From: Acuticoccus sp. I52.16.1
Lineage (GTDB): Bacteria; Pseudomonadota; Alphaproteobacteria; Rhizobiales; Amorphaceae
Assembly (NCBI RefSeq): GCF_022865125.1
Contig: NZ_CP094828.1
Span: 1,488,001 to 1,552,000, forward strand
DNA: 64,000 nucleotides
Direction: 5' to 3'
The first letter of the stretch is position 1, and the number at the start of each line of letters is the position of its first letter. The translations under genes and the position numbers were made by a program. Of this stretch, positions 10,642-27,971 are shown in pieces. The notes below the pieces were generated by a model. That model did not search any database. It had not been told where the DNA came from and worked only from the letters and a program-made list of their open reading frames with translations.

Positions 10642-11320
10642 GGGCCGGCTCCGCGTCGCCCATGACGAGGGCGCCGTTCTCGATCGTGACGACGCGGTCC
10701 ATCGCGGCGAGCAACGCGTCGTCGTGGCTGACCGCGATCAGCGTCTTGCCACCCCCGCGCGCGGCGCCGACGAGATCGTCGACGATGTGGGCGCGGGCGA
10801 CGGCGTCGAGGCTGGCGGTCGGCTCGTCGGCGAGGATGACTTCGGGGTCGGCGGTGAGCGCGCGGGCGAGCGCGATGCGCTGGCGTTCGCCGCCCGAGAA
10901 GGTGCGCGCGGCCCGGCGGCCGGCTGGGACGCCGAGTTCGGCGAGACGCTCGCTCGCCCGGCGGCGCAACGGGGCCCGCCGGCGGCGGGGGGAGAAGGCG
11001 GCGCAGATCGCGGCGTTGGCCTCCGCCCCAAGCTCCTCGAACAGCAGGAAGTCCTGGAAGACGAGGCCGACATTGTCACGCCGGAAGCGGGCGCGGGCGC
11101 CGGAGCGGATGGCGAGAATGTCCCGCTCGCCCCAGGCGACACGGCCGCGCGCGTCGGGGATCAGGCCGGCGATCGCGTAAAGGAAGGTCGACTTGCCGGC
11201 GCCCGACGGTCCGCGGATACCGACGCACTCGCCCGGTGCCGCGGCGAAGTCGGCCACCGCGACGAGGCGGCGGTCGGAAGCGCTCACCACCAGCGACGAG
11301 ACGGCGAGAGAAAGGCCCAT
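10634..11320 (-). CDS. ABC transporter ATP-binding protein (MacB/LolD type)
   Basis: A 228-residue single-module ABC ATPase with Walker A GPSGAGKS (about 37-44), Q-loop VFQDFLLFEELG, signature FSGGERQRIALARAL, Walker B VILADEPTASLD and the switch histidine in VSHDD. The size and the short form are typical of LolD/MacB ATPases that work with FtsX-type permeases. Its end overlaps the permease start by 8 bases, so they form one complex. The gene is 68 bases downstream of the CPFC secreted protein gene. Confidence 0.9.
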   Translation of the reverse strand: MGLSLAVSSLVVSASDRRLVAVADFAAAPGECVGIRGPSGAGKSTFLYAIAGLIPDARGRVAWGERDILAIRSGARARFRRDNVGLVFQDFLLFEELGAEANAAICAAFSPRRRRAPLRRRASERLAELGVPAGRRAARTFSGGERQRIALARALTADPEVILADEPTASLDAVARAHIVDDLVGAARGGGKTLIAVSHDDALLAAMDRVVTIENGALVMGDAEPAHA

Positions 11321-17458: not shown

Positions 17459-18298
17459 ATGGCTGCACCTCGGGGAAAGCTTTCTCGATCACAGGTCTTC
17501 CCCGTTCTTCTCATCGAAGACGAGGACGGAGACGCGGCGTTGTTCCAGGCCTATTTGGAAGAAAGCACGACCGACCGGTACACTCTGACCCGCGCCAGCA
17601 ACCTCACCGATGCCCTCGAGCACCTGCGCCGCACCCATTACGACGCGGTTCTGCTCGACCTCACATTGCCGGACTCCCGCGGCACGTCGAGCGTCGGCGC
17701 GGTGCGCGACGTGTCGCATGTGCCGGTCATCGTGCTGACCGGGATGGGCGAGGACGAGCTGGCGATGCGGTGCCTGGAGGCCGGCGCCGAGGATTATCTT
17801 CGCAAGAACGAGGTCGACGCCCGCGCCCTGCTGCGCGCCCTCGGCTACGCCATCATCCGGCGGCGCGAGGCGGAGCTGCGCACGATTTCCGACGCCCGCG
17901 CGCAGTACCAGACCATGTCCAACGGCGACCAGCCCAAGCCGGCGCTGAGCCCGCTGCGGGCCCGCGCGCCCGACGAGTTCCGCGCCTGCGCCACGCGCTA
18001 TTACGAAACGCTGATCAGCTACACGACCGCCATCAACAACCGCATGCGCAAGCCGCGCGAGGGGATGTCGGACATCGCCGACCGGCTCGGCCGGCTGAAC
18101 TGCGCGCCGCGCGACCTCATCGCGGTCCACGCCGCGGCGCTGGAGCTGGCTTCCGGCGAACTGCCGATCGAGCGGCAGTGCGAGCTCGTCGTCGAAGGGC
18201 GCCTCTTCGCATTGGAAATGATGGGCGTCCTGCTCGAATTCTACAGGTCGTCACAAGCGACGATGGAGGGGCGTGCGGCACATGATCTATCGTCTTAG
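17459..18298 (+). CDS. Receiver protein with KaiA-like C-terminal domain
   Basis: 279 residues. Residues 14-135 form a response-regulator receiver with a complete catalytic set: acidic pair near E20/D21, phosphoacceptor D67 in VLLDLTLPD, T94 in IVLTG and K116. A linker to about 170 is followed by a helical domain (about 172-265). Its end, with VHAAALELASGELPIE, RLFALEMMGVLLEFYRSS and matching spacing, resembles the KaiC-binding C-terminal domain of cyanobacterial KaiA, which ends ..RLTLIDVIAHLCEMYRRS as I recall it. A receiver joined to a KaiA-like domain is known as KaiA3 in cyanobacteria. It would stimulate KaiC autophosphorylation. The start follows AGGAAAAGG; kaiB begins inside its 3' end. 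Confidence 0.7.
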   Translation: MAAPRGKLSRSQVFPVLLIEDEDGDAALFQAYLEESTTDRYTLTRASNLTDALEHLRRTHYDAVLLDLTLPDSRGTSSVGAVRDVSHVPVIVLTGMGEDELAMRCLEAGAEDYLRKNEVDARALLRALGYAIIRRREAELRTISDARAQYQTMSNGDQPKPALSPLRARAPDEFRACATRYYETLISYTTAINNRMRKPREGMSDIADRLGRLNCAPRDLIAVHAAALELASGELPIERQCELVVEGRLFALEMMGVLLEFYRSSQATMEGRAAHDLSS

Positions 18299-18572
18299 CC
18301 TGTACGTCAGTGGCGAGAGCGCTCGCTCCTACGCGGCGATCCGGCACATCGAGTCGATCGCCAAGACCCATCTCCCCAACGCCTACGAACTCGAATTCGT
18401 GGATGTCCTGAAAGACCCCGCACGGGCCGAGCGTGACAAGATCCTCGCCACGCCGACCCTGGTGCGCGAACAGCCTGGACCGCGCAAGAAAATCATGGGC
18501 GAATTCGCCAATCACCTGGCCGTCATCGAGGCTCTGGAGATCGAAGTCTACGGACCCGGGGCACAGAACTAA
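18282..18572 (+). CDS. kaiB: Circadian clock protein KaiB
   Basis: A 96-residue thioredoxin-like KaiB. Family landmarks are LSLYVSGESARSYAAIRHIE, YELEFVDVLKDP and the signature DKILATPTLVREQPGP, followed by RKKIMGEFA. KaiB switches fold and binds the KaiC CI ring in the night phase, sequestering KaiA. The ATG at 18282 has GGAGGGG 11 bases ahead; an in-frame GTG at 18273 is too close to it. It overlaps the end of the KaiA-like gene by 17 bases and lies 5 bases before kaiC, so all three are co-translated. Confidence 0.95.
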   Translation: MIYRLSLYVSGESARSYAAIRHIESIAKTHLPNAYELEFVDVLKDPARAERDKILATPTLVREQPGPRKKIMGEFANHLAVIEALEIEVYGPGAQN

Positions 18573-18577
18573 CCGAC

Positions 18578-20101
18578 ATGTCGATCGATCCGCACTACAC
18601 GCTTCCCAAGATCGCCTCCGGTATCAACGGTTTCGACGCAATCTCCTACGGCGGCCTGCCGGAAGGGGGCTCGACGCTGATCGCCGGCGCCTCCGGCAGC
18701 GGCAAGACCGTCTTCTCGCTCCAGGTGCTGTACGCCGGCGTCAACGACCACGACGAGAACGCCGTCTTCGTCACCTTCGAGGAACGGCCGGCACGCCTGC
18801 TGCGCAACGTCCTGGGCTTCGGCTGGGACCTTCAGTCGCTGATCGACCGCAAGAAGCTCGCGATCGTCGACGTCACGCCCGAGCCGCAGGAGGAGCAGGT
18901 CGACCTCGGCACGCTGAACCTGTCGGCGTTGCTGGCGCGCATCGAGGCGGCGGTGAAGACCGTCTCGGCCAGGCGCGTGGTGCTGGATTCGATCGGCTCG
19001 CTGTTCCCCCAGTTCGCCGATCCCGGCATGGTCCGCCGCGAGCTGTTGCGCATCATCTCCCATTGCATGGACCTCGGGACCACCGTGCTCGTCACGGTGG
19101 AACGCTCCGAGAACGAGGGGCAGATCGGCCGTTTCGGGGTCGAGGAATACATCGCCGACAACGTCATCGTGCTGCGCAACCGCCTCGAAAACGAGACGCG
19201 ACGGCGCACGATCGAGATCCTGAAGTGCCGCGGCACCGACCACCAGCGCGGCGAGTTCCCCTTCACCATCGACCGCGAGGACGGGGTGACGGTGGTGCCG
19301 CTGTCGTCCACCACGCTGTACCAGCGCGCGCCCAATACCCGCATCACCTCCGGTATCGAGGTGCTGGACCGCATGACCGGCGGGGGCCTCTACGAGAGCT
19401 CGATCCTCCTGGTCTCGGGCGCGACCGGGACCGGCAAGACGCTGATGGTCGCCGAAACCGTGCGCGCCGCGATCAACAACGGCGAACGCATGCTGCTCTT
19501 CGCCGCGGAGGAGGCGCGCGAGCAGCTCACCCGCAACGCGGCCGCCTGGGGGGTCGACTTCGACGGCGCGGAATCGTCCGGCCTCCTGCGTATCGCCAGC
19601 CATTCGCCCGAAGAGGTCGGCCTGGAGGATCACCTCCTGCGCATGAAGCGGCAGATCGCCGACTTCAAGCCCAAGCGCATCGCCGTCGACAGCCTTTCGG
19701 CCTTCGAGCGCGTGTCGACGCCCAAGTCGTTCCGCGAGTTCGTGATCGGCCTCACCTCGCACATCAAGGTGATGCAGATCACCGCCGTCTTCACCAACAC
19801 GACGTCGCTGCTGATGGGCACCGAGTCGGTCACCGAGACGCACATCTCGACGATCACCGACTCGATCATCCTGCTGCGCTACGTCGAGATCAACGGCGAG
19901 ATGCGGCGGGGCGTGATGGTGCTGAAGATGCGCGGCACGTGGCACGAAAAGGCCATCCGCGAATACGTCATCGACGCCAACGGCATGCGCATCCTCGGCC
20001 CGTTCACCGGGATCCATGGCATCCTGTCGGGTGTGCCCACGTATACCATCAGCTCCGAGTCGCATCGGCTCGGCTCCCTGATACCCGACGACGAGGACTG
20101 A
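18578..20101 (+). CDS. kaiC: Circadian clock ATPase/kinase KaiC
   Basis: 507 residues, two RecA-like modules as in cyanobacterial KaiC. CI: Walker A GASGSGKT at 37-44 and catalytic EE at 68-69 (VTFEERPA). CII: Walker A GATGTGKT at 281-288, EE at 311-312, and THISTITDSIILLRYVEI with S424 and T425 aligned to the autophosphorylated Ser431/Thr432 of S. elongatus KaiC. The motif MRGTWHEKAIREY and the tail SGVPTYTISSESHRLGSLIP keep the region that forms the A-loop and KaiA-binding end. It should therefore hydrolyse ATP in CI and phosphorylate itself in CII. Fourth in a tight operon with the KaiA-like gene and kaiB before it and a histidine kinase after it. Confidence 0.96.
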   Translation: MSIDPHYTLPKIASGINGFDAISYGGLPEGGSTLIAGASGSGKTVFSLQVLYAGVNDHDENAVFVTFEERPARLLRNVLGFGWDLQSLIDRKKLAIVDVTPEPQEEQVDLGTLNLSALLARIEAAVKTVSARRVVLDSIGSLFPQFADPGMVRRELLRIISHCMDLGTTVLVTVERSENEGQIGRFGVEEYIADNVIVLRNRLENETRRRTIEILKCRGTDHQRGEFPFTIDREDGVTVVPLSSTTLYQRAPNTRITSGIEVLDRMTGGGLYESSILLVSGATGTGKTLMVAETVRAAINNGERMLLFAAEEAREQLTRNAAAWGVDFDGAESSGLLRIASHSPEEVGLEDHLLRMKRQIADFKPKRIAVDSLSAFERVSTPKSFREFVIGLTSHIKVMQITAVFTNTTSLLMGTESVTETHISTITDSIILLRYVEINGEMRRGVMVLKMRGTWHEKAIREYVIDANGMRILGPFTGIHGILSGVPTYTISSESHRLGSLIPDDED

Positions 20102-20123
20102 CGTGTCACCAGAGGGGGTCAGC

Positions 20124-21878
20124 ATGGTTCGGATCGTTCGCACGCGCGGCGAGGACGAACTCGATCCCCTCGCCGGCTTCGACCTCGACGGCCCGACCCG
20201 CATATCCGCCGTGCTGGTGGACGACCTGGCCGCCGCCCGCTCGGCCCTGCGCGAGCGGGACATCCTGCTGGTCAACCCGGCGGACCTCGTGGACGGCGCG
20301 CTGCCCGCATGGGTGGTCGAACGTGGGCGCAAGCATCTCGTCGTCGCCATTGCCGATGCACACTGGCCGCATGCCTTGCCCGCGGCGGTGATCGTCCTGG
20401 AGTCGGCGGCACACCTCGTCAGCTCGGCCCCGCTGCTGGCCCGCTGGGGCGCGCAGCTCGACGCCGCCCAGCGCGAGGCACGCGACCTCGGCGAGCTGGT
20501 CGACGCCAACCCCGACGCGGTGGTGGTGACCGACGACGGCGGCATCGTGCTGCGGGCGAACGCGGCTGCGGTGGCCATGTTCGTGGCGCCGGGAGAAGAG
20601 CTGGTCGGCCAGTCGCTCGCCTTCTCCGTCGGCGACAACGGCACCGGCCAGCTCGAATTCCTGGCGGAGGGGCAACGGCGCATCGGCGAGATCCGCCTGG
20701 CCTCGGTGGACTGGAACGGCGCGCCGGCCACCCTCGCCCTGGTTCGCGACGTGACCGACAAGGTGGACCTGCAGGACCAGCTCGCGCAATCGCAGAAGGC
20801 CGATGCGATCCGGCTGATGGCGGGCGGCATCTCGCACGAGTTCAACAACATGCTCGTCGTCGCGATGACGAACCTCTACTTCCTGCGCACCCATGTCGGC
20901 GGCGAAGGATCGGACCTGCTCGACAAGATCGACGAGGTGGTCGACCGGTTGCGCGTCCTCTCCGAGCAGATCCGCATCCTGTCGCAGAGCCATACCTCCG
21001 AGGCGCGGCGGACCGACCTCGGCGCGCTGGTCGCCGAGCATACCCCGATCCTGCGGTCCGCCATCCCGGCCGACATCGAGTTGGAGGTCGACGAGCCGAC
21101 CGAGCGATACCTCGTCGTCGTCGACCCCAACGAGATGCGCCAGGTGGTGATGAACCTCGTCGTCAACGCCATGAGCGCGACCAGCGCCGGCGGGACGATC
21201 CGCATCGCCACCGGCATGGTGCACGGCGCGCCCAACGGCCTGCCGGAGGGCGACTGGTCGACCCTGACGGTGAGCGACACGGGCAGCGGGATCGCCCCGG
21301 AGGACATGCCGCGCATCTTCGACCCGTTCTTCACCACCAAGCCGGTCGGGGCGGGGCGCGGCCTCGGCCTCTCGGTGAGCCGGGCGTACGTGCGACGCGC
21401 GGGCGGCACGATCGACGTGCGCTCGACCCCCGGCAAGGGCACCGTCGTCACCATCTACCTGCCGGGCGAGGGCGGCGTCCCGGAGGTCGCCGGGGCGATC
21501 GTCCGGAAAGACGATGCGGCCCCGCACATCCTCCTCATCGAGGACGACAGCGACGTCGCCACCGTGGTGAGCAAGGTGCTGGAGCGCGGCGGCTTCAAGG
21601 TGACGTGGCGCGACAACGGCCTGGAGGGCAAGGGCCTGATCGAAGCCGACCAGTCGATCCGGCTGGTGGTCAGCGACGTGGTGATGCCCAAACTCGGCGG
21701 GCGCGACCTCGCCGAGTGGCTGATCCGCGACCGGCCGCACGTGAAGCTCCTGCTGATGACGGGCTACACGGATCGCGTCGAGTGGCTGGAGGAGATCCGC
21801 GACGACACGCGCGACTACATCCTCAAACCGTTCCCGCCCAAGCGGCTCCTGTCCAGCGTGCGCCGCCTGCTCGACTGA
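20124..21878 (+). CDS. Hybrid histidine kinase of the kai operon
   Basis: 584 residues, soluble. Residues 1-110 form an unassigned alpha/beta domain that may be a degenerate receiver. A PAS domain follows (about 118-215, VDANPDAVVVTDDGG), then a HisKA helix with H238 in GGISHEFNNML, an ATPase domain with MRQVVMNLVVNAMSA, DTGSGIAPED and GAGRGLGLSVSRAY, and a C-terminal receiver (about 467-584) with phosphoacceptor D518 in VVSDVVMPKLGG. It has no KaiB-like sensor domain as in SasA, but its place 22 bases after kaiC makes it the likely clock output or input kinase. ATG at 20124 follows AGAGGGGGT; a GTG at 20103 is the alternative. Confidence 0.85.
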   Translation: MVRIVRTRGEDELDPLAGFDLDGPTRISAVLVDDLAAARSALRERDILLVNPADLVDGALPAWVVERGRKHLVVAIADAHWPHALPAAVIVLESAAHLVSSAPLLARWGAQLDAAQREARDLGELVDANPDAVVVTDDGGIVLRANAAAVAMFVAPGEELVGQSLAFSVGDNGTGQLEFLAEGQRRIGEIRLASVDWNGAPATLALVRDVTDKVDLQDQLAQSQKADAIRLMAGGISHEFNNMLVVAMTNLYFLRTHVGGEGSDLLDKIDEVVDRLRVLSEQIRILSQSHTSEARRTDLGALVAEHTPILRSAIPADIELEVDEPTERYLVVVDPNEMRQVVMNLVVNAMSATSAGGTIRIATGMVHGAPNGLPEGDWSTLTVSDTGSGIAPEDMPRIFDPFFTTKPVGAGRGLGLSVSRAYVRRAGGTIDVRSTPGKGTVVTIYLPGEGGVPEVAGAIVRKDDAAPHILLIEDDSDVATVVSKVLERGGFKVTWRDNGLEGKGLIEADQSIRLVVSDVVMPKLGGRDLAEWLIRDRPHVKLLLMTGYTDRVEWLEEIRDDTRDYILKPFPPKRLLSSVRRLLD

Positions 21879-27513: not shown

Positions 27514-27971
27514 GCGGACCGGCCGCCGCGGCCGATCCACCACCCTTCGCCCCCTGGGGTCCGGGCATGCCGGCACCGCCGCCGTTCCCCGTCCCCAGCC
27601 GTGAAGAGACGGTTCCGGCGAACCCACCCGAGCATCGTGCACGAAGGCGGCGCCCCTTCCCGCACGACCCTCGCGGGAGCGTCCACGGCCCTCGCAGCAG
27701 CCGAATCCGACCGTTGCGAGACGAATGGTCCGCGGTGTTGCCCGCCGGCCACAATGCACGCAAGGCACCCGCGGCAGCGCCCGGCGCCCCGCGCGACTTG
27801 ACGTGAGCCCTCCCAGCACGTAACTCCCAGCGACGCGGCCCTCGCCGCACCACCGCCCGACAGCGCGTTGCGCCCTCGGGCGCGTTTTGCGTTGCTCATC
27901 TGTCTGGCTGGCCGCCTGCGGCTCGCCGGTCGCCCGTCGCCGTCATGGCGTCGCCACCTCGGGGGTTGCCC
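27514..27971. other. Non-coding stretch upstream of ffh, with a hairpin
   Basis: About 460 GC-rich bases without a supported gene. Near its end GCGCCC (27870-27875) and GGGCGC (27878-27883) form a stem followed by GTTTTGCG, a possible terminator or leader hairpin ahead of ffh. I looked for the conserved SRP RNA (4.5S) loop here because ffh follows, and did not find it. Confidence 0.4.

Follow-up and report, generated by a model that had tools for sequence, protein, structure and literature searches.

A KaiA3-type protein with a phosphorylatable receiver domain in one of two kaiABC sets of the alphaproteobacterium Acuticoccus sp. I52.16.1

The closest described counterpart of the locus reported here is KaiA3 (Sll0485) of Synechocystis sp. 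PCC 6803, presented by Koebler et al. 2024 in an article that supplies most of the background used below (PMC11372060). According to this article, KaiA3 orthologs are known from Rhodospirillum, Bradyrhizobium, Roseiflexus, Chloroflexus and Chloroherpeton, and kaiA3B3C3 synteny is reported for KaiA3 carriers, Rhodospirillum and Bradyrhizobium included. The KaiA3B3C3 system of Synechocystis oscillates in vitro, and a possible input to KaiA3 is phosphorylation by a histidine kinase that is still to be identified. The N-terminus of cyanobacterial KaiA is a pseudo-receiver, the fold of the KaiA C-terminal domain is common to RsbU, and KaiA3 proteins without the receiver aspartate have been reported from Pleurocapsa and Microcystis. 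Proteobacterial Kai sets cited in the same article are tied to stress responses in Legionella and Pseudomonas, or to an hourglass timer in Rhodobacter. In R. rubrum, a second source places Rru_A3293 (kaiA3) before kaiB2C2, with the PAS kinase Rru_A3296 before it (PMC10931921).

The window analysed here, a stretch of 64,000 nucleotides from the genome of Acuticoccus sp. I52.16.1, carries a gene of this kind directly upstream of kaiB and kaiC (Table 1). The preliminary description of this DNA had read a KaiA-like gene that overlaps kaiB on the forward strand of an alphaproteobacterial genome, and each of these statements was borne out, the reading frame being correct in coordinates and strand and the class assignment agreeing with an alpha_tmRNA match in the genome (E 4.5e-81; among 14 control genomes only Caulobacter matches). 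The stop codon of kaiA3 (18296-18298) lies inside kaiB, with an overlap of 17 bases when kaiB is read from ATG 18282, the better placed start behind GGAGGGG, or of 26 bases from the alternative GTG 18273; for kaiA3 itself, TTG 17411 is a less likely start than 17459. Five bases separate kaiB from kaiC, and a hybrid histidine kinase, which the preliminary description had not mentioned, follows from GTG 20103, 1 base past the kaiC stop, or from the better placed ATG 20124, 22 bases past it. It is the sole kinase of the locus, which has neither an upstream kinase nor a lone receiver; HATPase and receiver profiles found no kinase or receiver gene besides the cluster's own between positions 11001 and 24000. 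A sigma-70 promoter scan returned zero matches against a chance expectation of 0.3. Further along the window, an Rfam ffh sRNA match lies at 27847-27890 (47.3 bits). The presence of a kaiA in a proteobacterial kai locus, which the preliminary description had set against the usual picture of kaiB and kaiC alone, stands, with less surprise attached to it since KaiA3 of Rhodospirillum and Bradyrhizobium had already been reported (PMC11372060).

Table 1. Features of the kai operon, in window coordinates
Feature	Position	Strand	Description and basis
kaiA3	17459..18298	+	279 aa; receiver plus KaiA-type C-terminal domain; ORF, Pfam Response_reg, profiles of relatives finding KaiA
Receiver domain	17504..17833	+	Residues 16-125; Pfam Response_reg E 4.3e-18; E20/D21, D67, T94, K116
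KaiA-type C-terminal helical domain	17942..18256	+	About residues 162-266; ends VVEGRLFALEMMGVLLEFYRSS; family profiles
kaiB	18282..18572	+	Pfam KaiB E 5e-20 (read from 18276); start-site reading
kaiC	18578..20101	+	507 aa; two ATPase domains; PF06745 E 6.6e-111
KaiC C-terminal tail			ILSGVPTYTISSESHRLGSLIPDDED
Hybrid histidine kinase	20103..21878	+	PAS-HisKA-HATPase-receiver; Pfam, NCBIfam
Kinase N-terminal segment	20163..20480	+	No receiver recognised; in the second-set kinases of this genus the segment is an intact receiver

The protein begins with a receiver whose phosphorylation site is complete, as had been claimed, and D67 is the aspartate available for phosphorylation. This receiver is its sole Pfam match, with no DNA-binding or enzymatic output domain found, and the 25 NCBIfam matches listed of 90 are response regulators and kinases, all aligned within the receiver or slightly beyond its end. 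Across a 32-row alignment of relatives, E20 and K116 are invariant, D67 is present in 29 rows, and the position of T94 is split evenly between T and S (16 each). This tally leaves out 5 of the 37 genes mapped below, namely a partial gene (L051), one of other architecture (L052), and three without a short locus (G440 contig 178, the second gene of G510, and G447 contig 306), which are also outside the A4 alignment.

The kinship of the C-terminal domain emerges from the family profile, not from the single sequence. Residues 165-279 gave no Pfam match at E <= 1, no NCBIfam match among the 25 of 90 listed and, when searched alone with phmmer, no PDB chain at E <= 10; Pfam KaiA (PF07688) matched nothing in the genome at E <= 1, let alone at its curated cut-off, and a single-sequence AlphaFold model made without an alignment consisted of helices only, at pLDDT 49. 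Relatives were gathered without reference to KaiA, at full length in the genus and then with the C-domain alignment in class and phylum samples, and as the resulting profile grew from A2 (8 genus rows) through A3 (11 rows) to A4 (34 rows) it was compared with the PDB. With A2, the best two of 12 sequences were KaiA (E 0.016), the third was the mitochondrial ribosomal protein mS46 (E 0.019), and KaiA made up 5 of the top 7. With A3, the top 8 of 17 were all KaiA (E 0.00095-0.015; next 0.1), and with A4 the PDB's 8 KaiA sequences ranked first of 10 at E <= 10 (0.0016-0.014; next 0.54). When the family profile was aligned with KaiA chains by HMMER, the KaiA-like C-terminus with one single-residue indel that had been noted from the letters was recovered, and the likeness exceeds chance: against three KaiA C-domains, hhalign scored A4 at 29.6 and A2 at 29.4, where the maxima over 298 column shuffles were 23.6 and 20.5, respectively. 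The profile-profile E-value is about 1.1e-4, at an hhalign probability of only 55-56%. Scanned singly at E < 1, 6 of 34 relatives matched Pfam KaiA (best 0.029), 4 matched RsbU_N (best 0.067) and 2 matched Gag_p24_C, whose best E of 0.00098 is the lowest of the scan, below any KaiA match, and is taken as chance; nine other families were hit by one member each. Taken together, the profile ranks, hhalign scores, shuffles and single-member scans support the view, drawn from sequence comparison, that the domain is a homolog of the KaiA C-domain too remote for the curated models to reach.

The weak RsbU_N matches, and the fold common to KaiA and RsbU (PMC11372060), could also be read as a partner-switch domain, in which case the helical bundle would bind some switch kinase instead of KaiC, and its place among kai genes would have another reason. 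We consider this highly improbable, as the PDB ranking favours KaiA, and both gene neighbourhood and evolutionary distances tie the family to KaiC. In a map of 37 genes with the C-domain in 35 loci, the window included, which was counted by a fixed rule and in which many loci stem from few related genera and are therefore not independent, kaiB and kaiC adjoin 34 of the 37 genes; the exceptions are L043 (G006), L051 (G293), which lies where a contig begins, and L099, which has a contig edge downstream. KaiA3 distances follow KaiC distances across 31 loci with a Mantel-type r of 0.94, a value inflated by related loci and reached in none of 2000 permutations. These 31 pairs omit the three genes without an adjacent kaiC (L043, L051, L099), the first L105 gene and L119, where kaiC is broken, and L118, where it is cut at the contig end. 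Profile searches, synteny and co-inheritance thus support the KaiA3 architecture and operon context proposed beforehand, and we regard the protein as a KaiA3 in the sense of Koebler et al. 2024, a kind already known, in Rhodospirillum and Bradyrhizobium too (PMC11372060).

The domain was found in at least 22 of 398 genomes of the phylum sample and in at least 5 of 289 of the class sample, figures that each include the window's own genome. They are minimum values because scoring covered only the first 15 or 11 candidates of each genome, and one of the class matches is judged false (G307, E 4.2e-4, by eye a repeat-rich, coiled-coil-like protein). Full-length relatives are present in 5 of the 8 genomes of the genus, and a KaiC of at least 62% identity occurs in G000, G002, G004 and G005, each with KaiA3. 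No such KaiC was found in G001 (89% complete), G003, G006 or G007, among which only G006 has KaiA3. There, a kinase, a lone receiver and kaiA3 follow one another (L043 2713-6769), and kaiB and kaiC are neither adjacent nor found in a genome that is 91% complete, which means either a KaiA3 without KaiC or an assembly gap. In G293 likewise, kaiB and kaiC were both not found. We also observed kaiB directly before kaiA3 in L106, L112, L116, L118, L119 and at the second kaiA3 of L097, with a second kaiB after kaiA3 in L112, L116, L118 and L119. Searching a collection of genome contigs with the window protein gave 10 loci, all within query residues 4-136, which are receivers of other proteins, and a scan of viral contigs gave no relative. 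Plasmids yielded 1209 matching records; among the 15 listed, none is annotated as a kai gene, and the two whose matches span 80% or more of the query (27-30% identity) carry the annotations GAF-domain protein and response regulator, and around the latter no kai gene is annotated to a distance of 3 kb. For KaiC, 286 plasmid records matched, and of three loci inspected two are annotated, one of them with kaiB and neither naming a kaiA, while the third carries no annotation.

The KaiC encoded in the window carries S424/T425 at the S431/T432 sites and ends in a short tail with no KaiC2-type extension, and thereby has the two CII phosphosites and short tail of the KaiC1/KaiC3 type. Its best PDB match is 8zn5, an entry named KaiC (E 2.5e-183), followed by other two-domain clock KaiC chains at E 7.4e-157 to 4.3e-165, whereas the chains of 8db3, 8dba and 8fwi, which we take to be Rhodobacter KaiC of the KaiC2 type, reach only about 1e-100. 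Across the 31 loci, the phosphosite pair is ST in 15, SS in 15 and MT in 1, the CII E/E pair is present in 30, and a stretch ILSG or ILTG resembling the A-loop region was counted by eye in the short tails of 22. At the MT exception (G262), KaiC has neither the CII glutamates nor the Ser phosphosite, and KaiA3 is replaced by a protein of unusual architecture (L052 5436-7004) in which the KaiA-type C-domain is preceded by two PAS domains and, judged by eye, also by a degenerate receiver, encoded in front of kaiB and kaiC.

On these grounds the window protein is likely a KaiA3-type activator of KaiC. By analogy with known KaiA and with the Synechocystis KaiA3 work (Koebler et al.), its C-domain would dimerise, bind the KaiC tail and pull out the A-loop, thereby raising KaiC autophosphorylation; at a later stage the activator would be sequestered by KaiB on phosphorylated KaiC. 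The same activation might also serve a stress or redox timer without a sustained rhythm, which is compatible with an activator role and differs from a clock in rhythm only. We give this a chance somewhat short of even, given that no photosynthetic reaction centre was found (Photo_RC profile, E <= 0.001, in a 97% complete genome) and that other proteobacterial Kai sets are linked to stress or hourglass timing (PMC11372060). On the other side stand the oscillation of Synechocystis KaiA3B3C3 in vitro (PMC11372060) and the window KaiC itself, in which every catalytic and phosphosite residue checked is kept.

The kinase is a candidate source of input to the receiver. Kinases adjoin the C-domain gene upstream in 20 of the 37 cases, downstream in 27 (a 28th, at L040, escaped the rule, its reading frame having been started too far upstream) and on either side in 30 by the rule, a lone receiver lies directly upstream in 25, and the full cluster of kinase, lone receiver, kaiA3, kaiB, kaiC and kinase recurs in 16. 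Tentatively, the operon kinase may phosphorylate D67, or remove its phosphate, and so tune the drive of KaiA3 on KaiC; this weaker proposal is one we would rate below an even chance. The enzyme matches only PAS, HisKA, HATPase and receiver families in Pfam, with none of the KaiB-like sensor domain of SasA, and a kinase is present at both other window-type loci as well. A SasA-like nature of the short kinases after kaiC elsewhere was rejected in the three tested, all PAS-HisKA-HATPase. Cyanobacterial SasA and CikA are KaiC-bound proteins that hand time on to a two-component system. With that precedent, and with a kinase gene directly behind kaiC here and downstream at most mapped genes, the protein could instead lie on the output side, as a response regulator driven by KaiC whose helical domain docks on KaiC while the kai complex gates phosphotransfer from kinase to receiver. 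This appears improbable to us, because the receiver's partner domain is of the KaiA type, which is known to activate KaiC, and no output domain was recognised, and because three paralogs without a phosphorylation site still keep the C-domain.

Those three paralogs belong to a second kaiABC set, also absent from the preliminary description, which accompanies the window-type set (kaiA3-kaiB-kaiC-kinase) in this genome (G000) and in two congeners (G002, G005). The second set is ordered kinase, lone receiver, kaiA3, kaiB, kaiC and a kinase with receivers at both ends. Its KaiA3 proteins account for all 3 of the 32 receivers without D67, having H instead, D21 changed to Q and a loop deleted, and the downstream kinases retain an N-terminal receiver with its Asp. 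This loss of the aspartate is not unique, given the Pleurocapsa and Microcystis precedent (PMC11372060). A further congener (G004) has the second-type set alone, with both the KaiA3 receiver and the kinase N-terminal receiver intact. In the three window-type kinases, an N-terminal receiver gave no profile match better than E 0.3. A degenerate receiver in the first ~110 residues of the window kinase could not be substantiated by hhalign (score 24.0 at 17% probability, with 1 of 200 shuffles exceeding it at 28.9). The upstream kinase of the second set in the own genome (L037 656-3493) shows HK_sensor_dom_bact, a weaker dCache match and PAS domains, which suggests that this set may read an external signal through the predicted sensor domain.

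It is conceivable that, in this non-phototrophic alphaproteobacterium, the two sets share out phospho-input, one receiving it through the KaiA receiver and the other through the kinase receiver, and that the second-set pseudo-receiver came to resemble that of cyanobacterial KaiA by its own route, though jointly we rate these proposals as rather unlikely. The downstream kinases of L102, L106, L112 and L116 have no N-terminal receiver either, though their KaiA3 keeps D67, so that lacking this receiver does not set the window type apart; moreover, the pattern comes from a single genus, with probably one change on each side, in the KaiA3 receiver and in the kinase receiver. The sequence trees do not decide whether the two sets stem from a duplication inside the genus, since the KaiC tree joins window and second types with G737 apart (support 0.93), whereas the KaiA3 tree, for which node support is not given, draws G737 with the second type.

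What this locus adds to the known KaiA3 systems is a candidate partner kinase, a recurrent cluster and the presence of two sets in one genome. The kinases beside 30 of the 37 genes form a short list of candidates for the histidine kinase that Koebler et al. name as a possible input to the KaiA3 receiver (PMC11372060), and intact and dead KaiA receivers within one genome provide a natural control for the effect of receiver phosphorylation on a Kai oscillator. Among the titles and abstract openings listed from an open-access library, there was no description of how kinases and receivers are arranged around kaiA3 in proteobacteria, of paired sets with active and dead KaiA3 receivers, or of a neighbouring kinase proposed to partner the KaiA3 receiver. 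In summary, the window protein shares with Synechocystis KaiA3, to which it is likened by architecture, a phosphorylatable receiver, a KaiA-type C-domain and a gene directly upstream of kaiB with kaiC after it, the order of most reported Sll0485 orthologs (PMC11372060); it differs in the hybrid kinase behind kaiC and in the second, pseudo-receiver set. The RsbU N-terminal domain (PF08673) has the fold of the KaiA C-terminal domain (PMC11372060) and is weakly matched by some relatives, but the window protein has no phosphatase domain and stands in a kai context. Cyanobacterial KaiA (PF07688) has a related C-terminal domain and a receiver-like N-terminal domain, but the latter is a pseudo-receiver (PMC11372060) and the Pfam model misses the window protein. 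The R. rubrum locus of Rru_A3293 is likewise an alphaproteobacterial kaiA3-kaiB-kaiC arrangement with a kinase nearby and resembles the layout of the second set, whereas the window locus, with its only kinase downstream, departs from it in having neither the upstream kinase nor a lone receiver.
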